64,000 nucleotides of DNA from NCBI RefSeq assembly GCF_026616195.1, contig NZ_JANHDH010000002.1:868001-932000 (forward strand), given 5' to 3'. Below are positions 47,056 through 55,232 of this stretch, in pieces (the stretch's first letter is position 1; the number at the start of each line of letters is the position of its first letter). The notes under the pieces were generated by a model, which saw nothing but the letters and a program-made list of their open reading frames with translations, was not told the DNA's origin and ran no database searches. The DNA is from Haloarchaeobius amylolyticus (lineage in GTDB: Archaea > Halobacteriota > Halobacteria > Halobacteriales > Natrialbaceae). Made by a program: the position numbers and the translations under genes.

Positions 47056-49836
47056 CTACATGAAGTTCCCGAGACCGGTCTGCTGCTGGCCGGACTTGAC
47101 CTCGTCCCAGGAGATGCCGAGCGCCTCGATGACGCGGGCGATGGGGCCCTTCAGCGTCTTCTCCAGCATCTTGTCGTAGTCGACCTCGAACGCCTCGGGT
47201 ACCTGGTCGTCGTACTCGAAGCAGATGACGTCCGGGTCGCGCTTGAACTCGCCGTAGAGGTGGTCGCGCTGCGGGTCGAACTCGCCGGCGTCCTCGAGCT
47301 GACGGAAGTACTCGGGGTGGACCTTCTGCAGGTAGAGCCGTTTCGGCTTCGAGCCGCGGTCGAAGTTCGTCCCGAGCAGCATGTTCGCGTACTTCGCGCC
47401 GCGGACGTGGGCGGTGTCGGTGTCGTAGTCGTCGAGGCGCTTGCCGATACCGCCCGGGATGGCGATGTCGTCGTAGCTGACGTTCCCGCTCTGGAAGTCC
47501 TCGATGATGCCGTGGAGGTACTCCGTGATGTCGTCCTCGCTGGCACCGCGGACGATCTGGTCGATGACGTGGTGCTGGACCTCCTTCGTGATGGCCGCGA
47601 TGTCCGAGCGCTTGTACTCGAAGCCCGTGATGTCGATGTCGTCGACGTCCTTGCCCTCCTTCCAGACGATGTGGCCGGCGTAGCGCTTCTTCTTGCCCGC
47701 CTGGAAGAATCTGCGGTAGAGCTTCTCGAACTCGATCTGGAAGCGGTGTTCCTCGCCGCCCGCGATGTCGACGTTCAGCTCCTCGGCGGCGAAGTCGTCG
47801 TACGAGGCGTTGATGTGCTCCTCTATCTCGAAGGACTGCTCGATGGCCTCCTCGACGGAGATGTCGCTGCCGAGTTCCAGCATGACGGAGTCGGTGTCAC
47901 CGTACGCGACCTGGTAGTCTATCTCGTTGGCTGCCTTCTCGGTGTGGCGGATGACCTCGCGCCCTGTTGCGGTCACGGCCGCGCCCATCTCCTTGTCGTA
48001 GAGGCGGAACCGGTCCCAGCCCAGGACCCCATAGAGGGAGTTCATGATGACCTTGACTGCGGCCTGCTGCTGGTCGTAGCGCTCGTAGTCCTGGCTACCC
48101 GGCTCGTGCTCGTTACGCAGCGATTTCTTCTGCTCGCGCTCCGTGAGCAGTTCGTCGACCATCTCCCGGATCATCCCGTCCTCGTCCTTCCGGAAGTGGG
48201 TCCCGTTGGGGGCGCGGTAGGTCGGGCCGTCGAAGGCCTCGGGGTCGACCTTCGTCTCGGGGCTCGCGTTGATGGTCACCATGCACATCGGGTAGAGCGA
48301 CTTCAGGTCGAGCACCGTCACCATCTCCTTGACGCCGGTGATGGGGTCGAAGACGGCCCCGCCCTCGTAGTCCTCGGACTCCTGCTTGCCCTTCGAGGGG
48401 AGCGCCCAGTCCCCGTGGACCTTGTGCAGCACGTACATGTCGACCGCGTCGCCCGCCGTGGGGGCGTCCTCCAGTTTACAGCCGACGAAGGTGCGGACCT
48501 CGTCCCAGAAGGCGACGATGTCCTGCTTGCGGTCGAGTTCGACGCAGATCTCCACGTCGCGCAGGTTGTACTCAAGGAGCTTCTCGGGGTCCTGCTCCCA
48601 GAGGTCGCCGATGTCGCCGGTGTAGCGTTCCTTGCCCACGTCGAGTTCGAGTTCGCCGACGGCGTCCAGCCGGTAGGACTCCAGTTCGGAGAACTGGCGG
48701 CTCTTGTAGGCGTACAGCAGGTCGAAGACGACGCGACCCTTGATGTCCGGGCCGCCCCAGCCCGAGCGCCAGACCTCGTTCACGCGCGAGAGGCGGTCCG
48801 GGTCGAGGTCGTGGTCGTGCATCGCGGAGTCGAGCACCTCGAGGCGGTCGAGGAAGTACGGCGCGTCGAAGTCCTCGAAGTTCCATCCCGTCAGCACGTC
48901 CGGGTCGGTCGCCTCGATGTAGTCGACGAACGCCGCCAGCATGGCCATCTCGGCCTCGCGCTGGCTCTCGCCGTCGAAGGTCTCCACGCGCACGTCCAAC
49001 TCGCCCTCGATGGGCTCGTAGTTCGGCAGGTCTTCGGGGACCGCGGCATCGCCCTCGTGGGCGACGTTGAGCCAGACGACGTACTCGTCGTCCACGGAGT
49101 CGTGCGAGGTGAGGCAGACGATGGGCTCCTCCCCGTCCTCGGGGAAGCCGTTGCGGTCGTCGACCTCGATGTCGAAGGTGTTCACGCGCGGGTCCGCGTC
49201 GACCGCGGTCGCCTCGACCTCCTGGTGGGGGACCCGGAGGGCGCCACTGCGGCCGCGGCGCTCGGGGATGCGGATACCGCTCTGGACGTCCTTGTCGATG
49301 AGGAAGCGGTTCGGGAACAGGATGTCGGCCTCGTAGTGGTCGAAGCGGTCGCGGATGTTCCCGACGTCGCGGGGCGTGCGCCCGAAGATCTTCGTCAGGT
49401 GCTCGCCGCGGATGCTCTCGTAGGGCTCGCCGTCCTCGTCGGTCTCTTCCCAGCCCGTGATGACCTCCTCGGACTCGAGTTCCTCCTCGTCGAGCGAGTC
49501 CGTAGGGGCGTAGAAGTACGGCTGGAACCCGAGTACCATCACGTGCTCGGCGGTGCCGTCGGGTCGCCGCCCGAAGACGTGGATGACGGGTTCCTCGTGG
49601 TCGCCCGACCCCTCGACGGTGTAGTCCACCTGCATCACGGCGAGTTCGACCGTTCCCTCGGGGTCGGGGAACAGGGCCTCGTCGCTCTCGACGATGTCGG
49701 AGTTCTCCAGTCCCGGTGTCGTGACGGCCTCCGCCTCCGCGACGAGGTCGTACGCGTCGTCGCCACCGTCGGCCTGCGCGTCCGCGTCCCCGGACGACTC
49801 CCCGAAGTCGTCGAAGGACGCCTGTTGTCGGGTCAT
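47056..49836 (-). CDS. polB: DNA polymerase, family B (replicative)
   Basis: The family B replicative polymerase of 926 residues, without an intein. Exonuclease motifs are FDIEVDD (221-227), NFEDFD (319-324) and YNLRD (423-427). Polymerase motifs are DLKSLYP (510-516), KVIMNSLYG (595-603) and YGDTDS (645-650). The C-terminus ends in QTGLGNFM, a PCNA-interacting (PIP) box. A TATA at 49860-49868 lies 24-32 bases before ATG 49836, so that start is preferred over an in-frame ATG at 49857. Residues 4-11, QQASFDDF, look like a second PIP-type motif. Confidence 0.97.
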   Translation of the reverse strand: MTRQQASFDDFGESSGDADAQADGGDDAYDLVAEAEAVTTPGLENSDIVESDEALFPDPEGTVELAVMQVDYTVEGSGDHEEPVIHVFGRRPDGTAEHVMVLGFQPYFYAPTDSLDEEELESEEVITGWEETDEDGEPYESIRGEHLTKIFGRTPRDVGNIRDRFDHYEADILFPNRFLIDKDVQSGIRIPERRGRSGALRVPHQEVEATAVDADPRVNTFDIEVDDRNGFPEDGEEPIVCLTSHDSVDDEYVVWLNVAHEGDAAVPEDLPNYEPIEGELDVRVETFDGESQREAEMAMLAAFVDYIEATDPDVLTGWNFEDFDAPYFLDRLEVLDSAMHDHDLDPDRLSRVNEVWRSGWGGPDIKGRVVFDLLYAYKSRQFSELESYRLDAVGELELDVGKERYTGDIGDLWEQDPEKLLEYNLRDVEICVELDRKQDIVAFWDEVRTFVGCKLEDAPTAGDAVDMYVLHKVHGDWALPSKGKQESEDYEGGAVFDPITGVKEMVTVLDLKSLYPMCMVTINASPETKVDPEAFDGPTYRAPNGTHFRKDEDGMIREMVDELLTEREQKKSLRNEHEPGSQDYERYDQQQAAVKVIMNSLYGVLGWDRFRLYDKEMGAAVTATGREVIRHTEKAANEIDYQVAYGDTDSVMLELGSDISVEEAIEQSFEIEEHINASYDDFAAEELNVDIAGGEEHRFQIEFEKLYRRFFQAGKKKRYAGHIVWKEGKDVDDIDITGFEYKRSDIAAITKEVQHHVIDQIVRGASEDDITEYLHGIIEDFQSGNVSYDDIAIPGGIGKRLDDYDTDTAHVRGAKYANMLLGTNFDRGSKPKRLYLQKVHPEYFRQLEDAGEFDPQRDHLYGEFKRDPDVICFEYDDQVPEAFEVDYDKMLEKTLKGPIARVIEALGISWDEVKSGQQQTGLGNFM

Positions 49837-49859
49837 TGCAGGGGCGTTAGCGGCCACCG

Positions 49860-50770: not shown

Positions 50771-51202
50771 ATGCGAACAGTCCGCGACGACTCCGGCGAC
50801 CGCTACCTCCTCGTGAAGGAGTCGGGGGACGCCAGCCTCGTGCGCGACCCGGCGACCGGCGAGGAACGGTACGTCGAGAACGACCGGCTCGAACCCGCCG
50901 AGGGCGAGACGCCACTGGAGACCGCCGCGAGTGCCGTCTCGCCGGCGGTCCGGCGCATCGTCTCCGCGACCCACGACGACCGCTCGCTCGGACTGCTGGT
51001 CGAACTGGCCGACGACGGGCCCGTCCCGGTCCGGGACCTGCTCGGGCGCTACGACCTCTGCGAGAGCGACCTGCTCGGCCTGCTCACGGAGTTCCGGGCT
51101 GCGGGGCTGGTCGAGGAGGCCCGGCTCGCGGGCGAACGCGGTTACGACGCGACCGACCTCGCGCGTGAGGGAGTCGATATCCTGCGCGAGGCCGGCGACT
51201 AG
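50771..51202 (+). CDS. winged-helix-like protein next to rad50 (DUF7346-like)
   Basis: A 143-residue protein. The N-terminal 40 residues are a beta strand region ([19 protein letters not shown]); residues 60-140 form a helical, winged-helix-like domain, with [39 protein letters not shown] and [17 protein letters not shown]. It resembles DUF7346 (label from memory). Its stop codon shares the palindrome ctag with the stop of rad50, so the two genes converge and overlap. A role in controlling DNA repair is a guess from position. Confidence 0.7.
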
Positions 51203-53871
51203 TACAGTTCCGCCAGCGGTTGCTCGCCGCGGCTGACCGTCGACCGGTTGGTCGTCGGGTCCTTCTCGACGTGGACCAGCGAGTCGGCCGCGCCGACGAG
51301 TTCCTCGTCGTGGCTGACGACGACGATCTGCTCGACGCCGTACTCGGTGCGCATCGTCTCGACCAGCGTCAGCAGTTGCGTGACGTGCCCCGAGTCGAGG
51401 AACACCGTCGGCTCGTCGAGGATGAGCGGGGGCATCGGCGCCGCGCCCTCGACGCCCTCGGAGAGCAGCCGGTAGATGGCACACCGCAGGCTCAGGTTGA
51501 ACAGGGCGCGCTCCCCGCCGGAGAGCTGTTCGGGGTCCAGCGTCTCGCCGTCCTTCTGGTACACCGTGAGTTCGTACTCGCCCGAGAGCTCGATGTGCGA
51601 GTAGGAGTCGTTCTGGTACACCAGGTCGAACGTCTCGTTGAGCATGCGTTCCAGCGTCTCGACGTTGCGCTGGCGCAGGTCAGCCCGGAGGTCCTTGTAC
51701 ATCTGCTGGAGGTCCTGCGCCTCGGCGTAGAGGGATTCGAGGGCGTCGAGGCGCTCGCCGAGGTCGTCGCGCCGCTCGCGTAACTCCTCCAGTTCGGATA
51801 TCTCGCCGCGGACCCTGCCGGCGCGGTCCTGCAGGTCGTCGCGCGTCTCGGCGAGGTCCTCGAGCTTCGCTTCGACCTTCTCGATGTAGCCGGCGGCCCG
51901 CTTCTTCTCCGTCCGGGCGTTCTCGACCTGCGAGTCGTCGACGGCCGCCTCGAGTTCGGCCTTGCGCTCGCGCTTGTCCGCGAGGGTGTCGCGGCGTTCG
52001 TCGTTCTGCTCGCCGAGCAGGTCGCGCTTCTCCCCGAGGCGTTCGATATCGGCTTCGAGTTCGGCGACCTGGTCGAGGGTGTCAGCGAGCGAGTCGAGAG
52101 TCTCCTTGCGCTGGGCGACGGTGGCCTTCTCGGCGTTCGCCTCGCCCAGGGCCTCGCGGCTGTCCTCCAGCGCGTCGCGTTCCTCGGCCGCCTGCTCGCG
52201 CTTCGCCTCGGCCTCGGCCTCGAACTCGTCGGCCTCGTCGTGCAGGCGCTGGCGGCGCTCGCGCTTGTCTTCGAGGGCGGACTCCTTCTGGTCGAGGAGC
52301 TGCTCCATGTTCGATATCTGGTCGCGCAGTCGCTCGACCTCGTCCTCGGCGTCGACGAGTTCCTCGGCCCGGTCGATGCGCTCGTCGAGGGCCTCGATGT
52401 CGGCCTCCACCGATTCGAGCTCGGTCTGCTTCGTCTCGAGTTCTTCGCGGTCCTCGTCGATGGTGTCGACGTGGGGCGAGTCCTCGACGGGCTGGCCACA
52501 CTCGGGGCACTTGCCCTCGGCGAGCAGCTCCTCGGCCTCCTCGATGCTGCTGCGAAGCAGCTCCACCGCGGTCTGGAGGTCGGCCCGTTCCTCGCGCAGG
52601 TCCTCGCGTTCACCTTCGAGTTCTTCCTGCAGGGCCTCGGCCTCGCCGAAGTCGACCGGCGCGTCGTCGAAGGTCGCCTTCGCGGCCTCGACCTCGTCCT
52701 CGAGACTGTCGACCTTCTCGCGGCGGTCCGCGATGGCCGCCTCGTCGGACTCGATCTCGTCGGCGAGCGCCTCGGCCTCCTCGCGCTTCCCCTCGGCCTT
52801 CGATTCGAGGTCGTCGGCCTCCTCCTCGAGCCGGTCGGCACGCTCGCGGTGGTTCGAGAGTTCGTTCCCGAGGTCGTTCACGCGCTCTTTGAGGTCGTCG
52901 AGGTCCGATTCGACCTCGGCCAGGCGCCCCTCGACCGCCTCGGCGTCCACGTCGGCCGCGAGGTCGGTGTCGGCGACCAGGTCGTCTCGCGTCTCCCGCG
53001 CCGCGGACAGCTCCTCGCGCAGGTCGCGACGGTCCGCCTTCAGCTCCTCGCGTTCGCGCTCGGTCTCGGCGATGCTCTCTTGCAGGTCCTCGATGTCGTC
53101 CTCGACCGTCGCGAGCTTCTCGCGTTTCTCCTCGTACTCCTCGAGGATGTCCTCGGCCTCCTGTCTCGTCTCCTTCGCCGTCTCGAGTTGCTGCTCGAAG
53201 TTCTCGATGTTCGCTTTCGTCTCCGCGAGGTCGGACTCGATGTCGTTCAGGGTCGCGTGGAGGTCCTTCGCCTCCTTCTCGGCGATCTGGTCCGCCAGCC
53301 CCTCGTAGCGCCCGCGGACGTTGTCGAGCACGTCGTTGACGCCGAGGCGGGCCTCGCTGGCGCGCTCGCGGTAGTCCTCAAGTTTGCCCAGCTGCAGGAG
53401 GTCGTCGATCATGTCCTGGCGCTCGGATGGGGTGGCGTGGATGAGCTTGTTGACCTCTCCCTGGCGGACGTACGCGCAGTTGACGAACGCGTCGGCGTCC
53501 ATCCGGAGAAGTTCCGTCACCTTTCCGCGGACCGACCGGGCCCCCTCGAAGGTGCCCTCGGGCGCTTCGAGGATGCACTTCGCGGTCTGGGCGCGGTCGC
53601 TGGTGTACCGGATACGGCGCTCGATGTGGTAGTCCTCCCCGGCGTGGGAGAACCAGAGTTCGACCTCGGCGTCGTCCGCGCCGGTCCGGACCACGTCGTC
53701 GAGGGTGCCCGAGAGCGCCTTCGACCCGTAGAGCGCGAAGAAGCAGGCCTCGAGCAGGCTCGACTTCCCGCTCCCGTTGACGCCGTGGACGACGGTGACC
53801 CCGCGGTCGAGCGTGAGGTCGGCGTCGCCGTAGCACTTGAAGTTCGAGAGGCGGACGCGGTCGACCCTCAT
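51199..53871 (-). CDS. rad50: DNA double-strand break repair ATPase Rad50
   Basis: SMC-like ATPase that acts with Mre11 on DNA ends. The 890-residue protein has Walker A GVNGSGKS (30-37), a long antiparallel coiled coil, the zinc hook CPECGQP near 455-461, the signature LSGGERALF near 782 and Walker [14 protein letters not shown] near 815. The length is normal for archaeal Rad50. Its ATG overlaps the mre11 stop by four bases. Confidence 0.97.
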
Positions 53872-55232
53872 TCGAAATCACCCATGGAGGTCTGCCCGGC
53901 GTCGTCCCCGGTCGCGGCGGCCTCGGCAGCGGCCTCGGTGTCGGCTGGTTCCGCGTCGTTGCCGGTTGACTCCGCACCGGCGTCGGCTGGTTCCGCGTCG
54001 CCATCGGCTGGCTCTGCGCCGGTCTCGGCCGTTGTCTCCTCGGACTCGGTGGTGGCGTCGGTCGCCTCGGCTCCGTCGTCGTCACCCGCGTCGTTCCCGG
54101 CCGCGTCGCCATCGTTGACCGCCTCGAACGCGCCGAGGTCCTCGTCGTCGACCAGCGACTGCACGCGGTCTTTCACCTCGTCGCGGACGTTCGCGTCGGC
54201 GACCTTGCTCGCGCGGACCGTCTCGTCCACGTCGCGGGCGGCCTGGCTCAGGCCGAGTTCACGCACGCGCTCGCGAACCGCCTCGTCTGGGTCGGCGAAG
54301 GACACCTCGACGCTGCTGTCCTCCTCGAACTCGCGGCGGTCTTTCACGCGGGCGACCAGCGCGCCGCGGTCGATGGCGAACTCCTCGATGGCGGCCGGCG
54401 AGACCGGCTCGCCGTCCCCGGTCACGGAGACGATGACGACCGCGTCCTCGCAGTCGTACTCGCGGACCGCCTCGCGCACGCGCTCGACGCCCTCGCCGGG
54501 CGCGAGGTCCACGTCCACGAACCGGAAGGGGCGGTTGTCCGGGATGCCGCGACGGGTGATGGTCACCTCGTCGTCGGTCGTGACGATGTTGTAGCCGCGG
54601 TCGTCGCGCTCGCTCGCGCTCACGCGCTCGGTCGAGCCGCAGTACGTGACCCAGGTGTCGCTGGCCTCCTCGACGCCGGGCGCGTGGTTGTCGCCGAGCA
54701 GGAGCGCGTCGAAGTCGACGGACGATTCCTCGAGCAGCCGCTCGGTGTCCCAGTCGGCGTGCGCGAAGGGCTCGAACAGGCCGTGGGTGACGAGCATCGC
54801 GTACTCGGCGTCGTGGGGCGCGAAGTCGTATTCGAGGTCGTCGCGCCGCGAGCGCGGCACGAAGTCGAGGCCGTAGAAGGCGGTGTCACCGAGGACGTGG
54901 GGTTCGCGCCCCAGGCGGGTCGCGAGGCCGATGTCGGCGAAGAGGTCGAGCCACTGGCCGTCGCGCTTGCCCTCGTGGTTCCCCACCACGGCGAGGAAGG
55001 GGATGTCGGCGTCGGCGAGGTCACGCAGTGCGGCGACCGTCCCCTGGAGGTCCTGGAGGCCGGGGCGGCGGTCGTGGAAGAGGTCGCCCGCGTGGACCAC
55101 GGCGTCGACGTCGTCGTCGATAGCGTCGGCCACGACCCGTCGGAACGCGTCGAGGAAATCCTGCCGACGGGCCGGGGAGTGGTACTGGCGATACCCGAGG
55201 TGGGTGTCCCCAGTGTGGATCACTCGTGTCAT
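53868..55232 (-). CDS. mre11: DNA repair nuclease Mre11
   Basis: Manganese-dependent exo/endonuclease of the Mre11-Rad50 complex, 454 residues. The phosphoesterase motifs are Asp9 and His11 in GDTHLG, Asp50 in [15 protein letters not shown] (84-87 region) and the later LVTHG and LLGDNHAPG. After the capping domain comes a low-complexity acidic tail (about 375-446) that ends QTSMGDFE, a PIP-box-like end. A TATA-like TCTTTAGGG (minus, 55254-55262) gives a leaderless start. Confidence 0.96.

Follow-up and report, generated by a model that had tools for sequence, protein, structure and literature searches.

A probable PIP box at the C-terminus of haloarchaeal Mre11 in codons that also carry the rad50 Shine-Dalgarno site

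The last eight residues of the Mre11 nuclease encoded in the window (the whole analysed stretch of Haloarchaeobius amylolyticus DNA, 64 000 nt) most likely form a PIP box able to tether Mre11-Rad50 to PCNA. We favor this reading because the motif is conserved beside a variable linker and because five PCNA clients of the same genome end alike. The conservation of the tail has in part a second cause, since the middle codons of the motif are also the Shine-Dalgarno (SD) site of rad50.

The Mre11 tail and its likeness to PCNA client tails

The product of mre11 (Table 1) scores 645 bits against the profile NF041030 (Mre11_Halo, cut-off 550) and has a Rad50_Halo gene as its neighbor, which places it among the haloarchaeal Mre11 proteins. 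The profile model stops at residue 361, so that the C-terminal tail lies outside it. Read from the minus-strand open reading frame at 53868–55232, the protein ends in QTSMGDFE, as the earlier note had stated; the span given there for the motif (53868–53892) marks the right site but lacks two bases, the codons of the motif filling 53871–53894 and the stop codon 53868–53870. In an AlphaFold2 single-chain prediction made with an alignment of 61 orthologues, we obtained a confident core and a stretch of low confidence (pLDDT <50) over residues 382–448, in agreement with the disordered tail that had been proposed to precede the motif. A short helix was predicted at residues 450–453, and the pLDDT of the last block climbs to 59. 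The motif forms the last eight residues of a predicted flexible terminus.

Table 1. Features of the mre11–rad50 locus and the PolB tail used as a yardstick (positions within the window)
Feature	Position	Strand	Description
rad50	51199..53871	minus	890 aa; start overlaps mre11 stop by 4 bases (ATGA); NF041035 Rad50_Halo, 1309 bits
rad50 Shine-Dalgarno site GGTGAT	53877..53882	minus	within the codons of the PIP-like motif; five bases before the rad50 ATG
mre11	53868..55232	minus	454 aa, haloarchaeal Mre11 nuclease; NF041030 above cut-off, Metallophos match
PIP-like C-terminal peptide QTSMGDFE	53871..53894	minus	Mre11 residues 447–454; conserved; short helix predicted
Acidic linker	53895..54089	minus	Mre11 residues 382–446; predicted disordered (pLDDT); varies among orthologues
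PolB C-terminal PIP QTGLGNFM	47059..47082	minus	yardstick; from sequence

PolB, Fen1, NreA, RNase HII and PolD DP2 are PCNA clients known in archaea. In the genome under study their tails read QTGLGNFM (PolB), QTGLDNWT (Fen1), QASLSDF (NreA), QAGLGDF (RNase HII) and QSGIADFM (PolD DP2). The likeness to PolB that had been pointed out before holds for the whole protein end, as PolB (47056–49857, minus strand) terminates in QQQTGLGNFM. Excerpts from two papers give the PIP-box consensus as Q-x-x-[LIM]-x-x-aromatic(-aromatic) (PMC4929162, PMC3950489), and QTSMGDFE agrees with it up to the first aromatic, while the second is missing, likewise in the five clients. Mre11 and these clients share a Q-x-x-h-x-x-aromatic motif that stops at most one residue short of the C-terminus and has a single aromatic; Mre11 differs from them in that h is mostly M, in that the x-x pair is mostly ED, EE, GE or GD, and in that the Q has been lost in several lineages. 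Among 312 genes called in a 364-kb sample of the genome, only PolB and Mre11 have tails fitting the full pattern (the gene caller, also used for the overlapping-pair controls below, was home-made). From the composition of the sampled genome about 1 in 1000 random tails (∼1e-3) would be expected to fit it at their end, and a single match therefore proves little.

Among solved structures, the best match of the canonical PCNA of the genome (L298) is Haloferax volcanii PCNA (3hi8, E 3.4e-111), and the match extends along the entire protein. It is one of three PCNA homologues, the others being L299, on the same contig (G000:C1), and L297 (G000:C4). The latter comprises 368 aa and carries an extra N-terminal region of ∼120 residues that looks helix-hairpin-helix-like by eye.

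Conservation of the tail among Mre11 proteins

Our first set of tails, drawn from 102 genomes of which two (G209 and G021, each with only a 38%-identical homologue) were left out, comprises 100 haloarchaeal Mre11 orthologues from 73 genera; three of the 76 genera sampled (g25, g33 and g43) yielded no orthologue, and one of the 292 genomes searched for Mre11 (G230) gave no match. All 100 orthologues end in h-[EG]-[DE]-x followed by none or one further residue. The h-x-x-aromatic core stands at the very C-terminus in 93 of them (68 of the 73 genera), and the full Q-x-x-h-x-x-aromatic motif in 60 (46 genera). Position h is taken by M (64), L (32), W (2), V (1) or I (1), so that L, M, I and V together account for 98, and the aromatic position by F (58), Y (35) or another residue (7). 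A Q three residues before h is present in 67 orthologues (51 genera) and absent from 33 (22 genera); it is gone in 15 of the 23 genera of the family to which the window belongs (f1) and in all 8 named Haloferax. The motif columns (Q, S/T, h, the two x and the aromatic) have 0.9–1.8 bits per column, compared to 2.4–3.1 bits in the linker columns upstream. In a second set of 80 named loci, which partly overlaps the first, we found the full motif in 44 and the h-x-x-aromatic core in 79; the one exception (L283) suffers from a frame break, and another of its frames ends in GTLEEYL. Further haloarchaeal loci gave 9 of 15 and 14 of 15, respectively, the failing row (L175) being again frame-broken, with the other frame running on to DGQV at the end of the printed stretch.

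Given that 93 of 100 orthologues keep the core and 60 the full motif, the Mre11 tail stands above chance. A chance resemblance without function would draw on the roughly 1 in 1000 random tails that fit, and we consider it extremely improbable, as the motif recurs across the genera counted above beside a variable linker; it was rejected on the conservation among the 100 orthologues. The earlier note had let its PCNA reading depend on haloarchaeal Mre11 tails keeping Q-x-x-(L/M)-x-x-F, and the tail is indeed kept across 73 haloarchaeal genera. The reading itself is partly supported by this conservation, by a Methanosarcinaceae-like family and by the five client tails, and is qualified by the 22 genera without Q and by the use of the middle codons as the rad50 SD. 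Two oddities were seen among the tails. In L125 (G017) the beginning of the motif occurs a second time, farther upstream in the tail (SQASMEADD...DDQASMEEFR), and at the end of mre11 in L190 a tandem repeat (∼38 bases, by eye) duplicates the PIP/SD segment before rad50.

Outside the haloarchaea, a family that we name Methanosarcinaceae-like by inference (f13) has the full motif at 14 of 15 loci and the h-x-x-aromatic core at all 15, its tails being mostly [KR]QYNLGDYL. At 25 more distant Mre11-like loci of Halobacteriota the core was never found at the very end (0/25), although two of them have a PIP-like stretch near the end by eye (L193, RRTLFDFVEG; L208, SRTLDQFWSG). The terminal motif was likewise absent from all seven distinct low-identity Mre11 homologues. 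It is also missing from an eighth (L140), in which a stretch NQASFADI lies inside the protein. Five of the 25 distant loci, from several Halobacteriota families (L204, L205, L209, L214 and L215), carry WDW[RK] near the C-terminus, possibly another Mre11 tail motif.

Several of these counts speak against a PIP box: the Q missing from 33 of 100 tails, including those of 15 of 23 f1 genera and of the 8 Haloferax, the single aromatic in place of the textbook pair, M rather than L at h in 64 tails, the 7 tails lacking an aromatic, and the 25 distant loci without a terminal motif. In another reading, the tail would be a conserved short linear motif recognized by some partner apart from the canonical PCNA, e.g. 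another PCNA homologue, RPA or Rad50 itself. It is sequence resemblance only that points to PCNA, the Q is dispensable in many lineages, three PCNA homologues are encoded in the genome and a different tail motif (WDW) occurs in other families. We nevertheless judge another partner unlikely, in view of the match to five client tails of the same genome, of the association of PCNA with Mre11/Rad50 in Pyrococcus abyssi (excerpts from PMC3820547) and of H. volcanii NreA, whose loss is phenocopied by removal of its C-terminal PIP (excerpts from PMC4929162). The NreA case also indicates that C-terminal PIP tails matter in vivo.

Codons shared with the rad50 Shine-Dalgarno site

In the Mre11 motif, the x-x pair that separates h from the aromatic is encoded by GGT-GAT or GAG-GA., which produces GGTGA or GGAGG. 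Both sequences pair with the 16S rRNA 3' tail. One of them lies in the last 24 nt of mre11 in all 100 orthologues, at normal spacing to the rad50 start, and the two genes overlap by 4 nt in 87 of the 100; Fisher tests made in this survey count related genomes as independent and are descriptive only. The Gly codon within the motif is GGT in 50 of 50 cases, whereas in the sampled genome GGT makes up 11% of Gly codons (and GAT 4% of Asp codons). Since GGTGA or GGAGG occurs in 100/100 and GGT in 50/50, we conclude that the DNA is under Shine-Dalgarno selection. According to passages of PMC6728339, re-initiation at overlapping gene pairs of haloarchaea makes use of SD motifs, and for other such pairs of H. 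volcanii translation of the downstream gene was shown to depend on the upstream gene. The mre11–rad50 pair has the features of an SD-coupled pair, with the SD-like GGTGAT, five bases and then ATGA. It resembles the H. volcanii termination-reinitiation pairs described in those passages in that the first gene holds the SD in its 3' end and stop and start overlap as NTGA; unlike them, its SD codons sit inside a conserved putative protein interaction motif.

Such data might suggest that the 3' end of mre11 is kept only for the SD and start codon of rad50 and that its PIP look is accidental, and the universal GGTGA or GGAGG, the frequent overlap, the codon bias and the haloarchaeal re-initiation mode all fit this explanation. 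However, the rad50 SD accounts for the GD/EE pair and leaves Q, M/L and F/Y unexplained, as the Q, h and aromatic positions lie beyond the core of the SD. The aromatic position alternates between F and Y (58 and 35 per 100), and non-aromatics are rare there (7/100). For comparison we used 55 control gene pairs with a −4 overlap: an aromatic was found at the matching place in 1, a Q in 1 and the h-x-x-aromatic core in none, compared to 59 of 64 Mre11-Rad50 pairs found with the same caller. The genome also holds a second Mre11 homologue (L002/L152, G000:C2:215483-216625), which is 35–36% identical and has its own rad50-like neighbor. In L002, as in L141, another of the seven low-identity homologues, the 4-base overlap with the rad50-like gene is the same as in mre11–rad50. 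L002 has an SD as well (GGAGGTG), yet it ends in TEEVAE, without a PIP-like tail.

Loci at which rad50 is set apart from mre11 bear on the same point. In 11 named loci (nine from Haloarcula) the start of rad50 lies 10–43 bases downstream, and the gene often has its own GGAGG (in this survey of spacing no rad50 start was found for locus L278), and the core is kept in 11/11 and the full motif in 9/11. Five of these Haloarcula loci keep QASVEEFL despite an internal GGAGG broken by a GTC codon; there mre11 stops with TAA and rad50, starting 13 nt on, has its own TGGAGG. This Haloarcula case already weakens the explanation by translation signals, which we hold to be very unlikely and which was rejected as the sole cause on the control pairs, the Mre11 paralogues and the Haloarcula loci.

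Proposed function and relation to known systems

For the PIP-box reading we propose the following course. The last eight residues of Mre11 would serve as a PIP peptide borne by an acidic, flexible tether ∼65 residues long. M450 (h) and F453 (aromatic), arranged in a short helical turn, would enter the hydrophobic pocket of PCNA, and Q447, where a Q is kept, would occupy the Q pocket. Mre11-Rad50 would thereby be held on PCNA-bearing DNA, whether at forks or, with equal likelihood, at break ends. PCNA binding, the site of action and an effect on the nuclease are our inferences. At the level of the mRNA the x-x codons would double as the SD, so that ribosomes finishing mre11 re-start on rad50.

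We further think it somewhat probable that the eight codons do two jobs, as a clamp hook of Mre11 and as a re-start signal for rad50, and that the two hooks of the dimer leave one site to PolB. Selection may have settled on x-x pairs (GD, ED, EE and GE) that fit both codes, and the same 24 bases would then specify both how the complex is recruited to the clamp and how much of the partner subunit is made. An Mre11 dimer would place two hooks on the three-site clamp, and PolB could use the remaining site to take over after resection. If true, this would be a clear case of a putative protein interaction motif and a translation signal sharing codons.

Binding of this kind has precedents. Hogrel et al. 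reportedly found in 2018 that P. furiosus Mre11 meets PCNA via a short PIP-variant motif in its C-terminal part. In P. abyssi a PCNA-Mre11/Rad50 complex was seen by pull-down (passages of PMC3820547), so that such binding is already known in Pyrococcus and haloarchaeal Mre11 would be a further putative case. In contrast to Thermococcales, the Mre11 proteins of Halobacteria and the Methanosarcinaceae-like family end in a near-canonical putative PIP that follows an acidic linker, and in haloarchaea its codons double as the rad50 Shine-Dalgarno site. Passages of a review on replication and repair in H. volcanii (2020) count PolB1, PolD, RFC-B, Fen1 and RNase H2 among the PIP proteins and do not mention Mre11. 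We found no report of a PIP in haloarchaeal Mre11 in titles, abstracts and passages of the open-access literature, and the text of PMC2700283 contains neither 'PCNA' nor 'sliding clamp'. If the PIP-box reading is true, clamp tethering of Mre11-Rad50 extends well past hyperthermophiles, to haloarchaea and Methanosarcinaceae, and becomes open to genetics in halophiles; it would also open a way to ask why Mre11-Rad50 of H. volcanii holds recombination back and how it gets to damage.

A separate observation concerns the other end of PolB. Right after the likely start codon of PolB (49798–49836 of the window, minus strand) we noticed a PIP-like motif, MTRQQASFDDFGE. Other PolB proteins begin with MTEAGQTGLTDF, MTQTGLTDF or MTQSGLGDF, and with F allowed at h the Q-x-x-h-x-x-aromatic pattern lies near the start of 45 of 61 PolB, several others having Q-less forms such as MPNASLTDF. 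Haloarchaeal PolB may thus grip the clamp at both ends.
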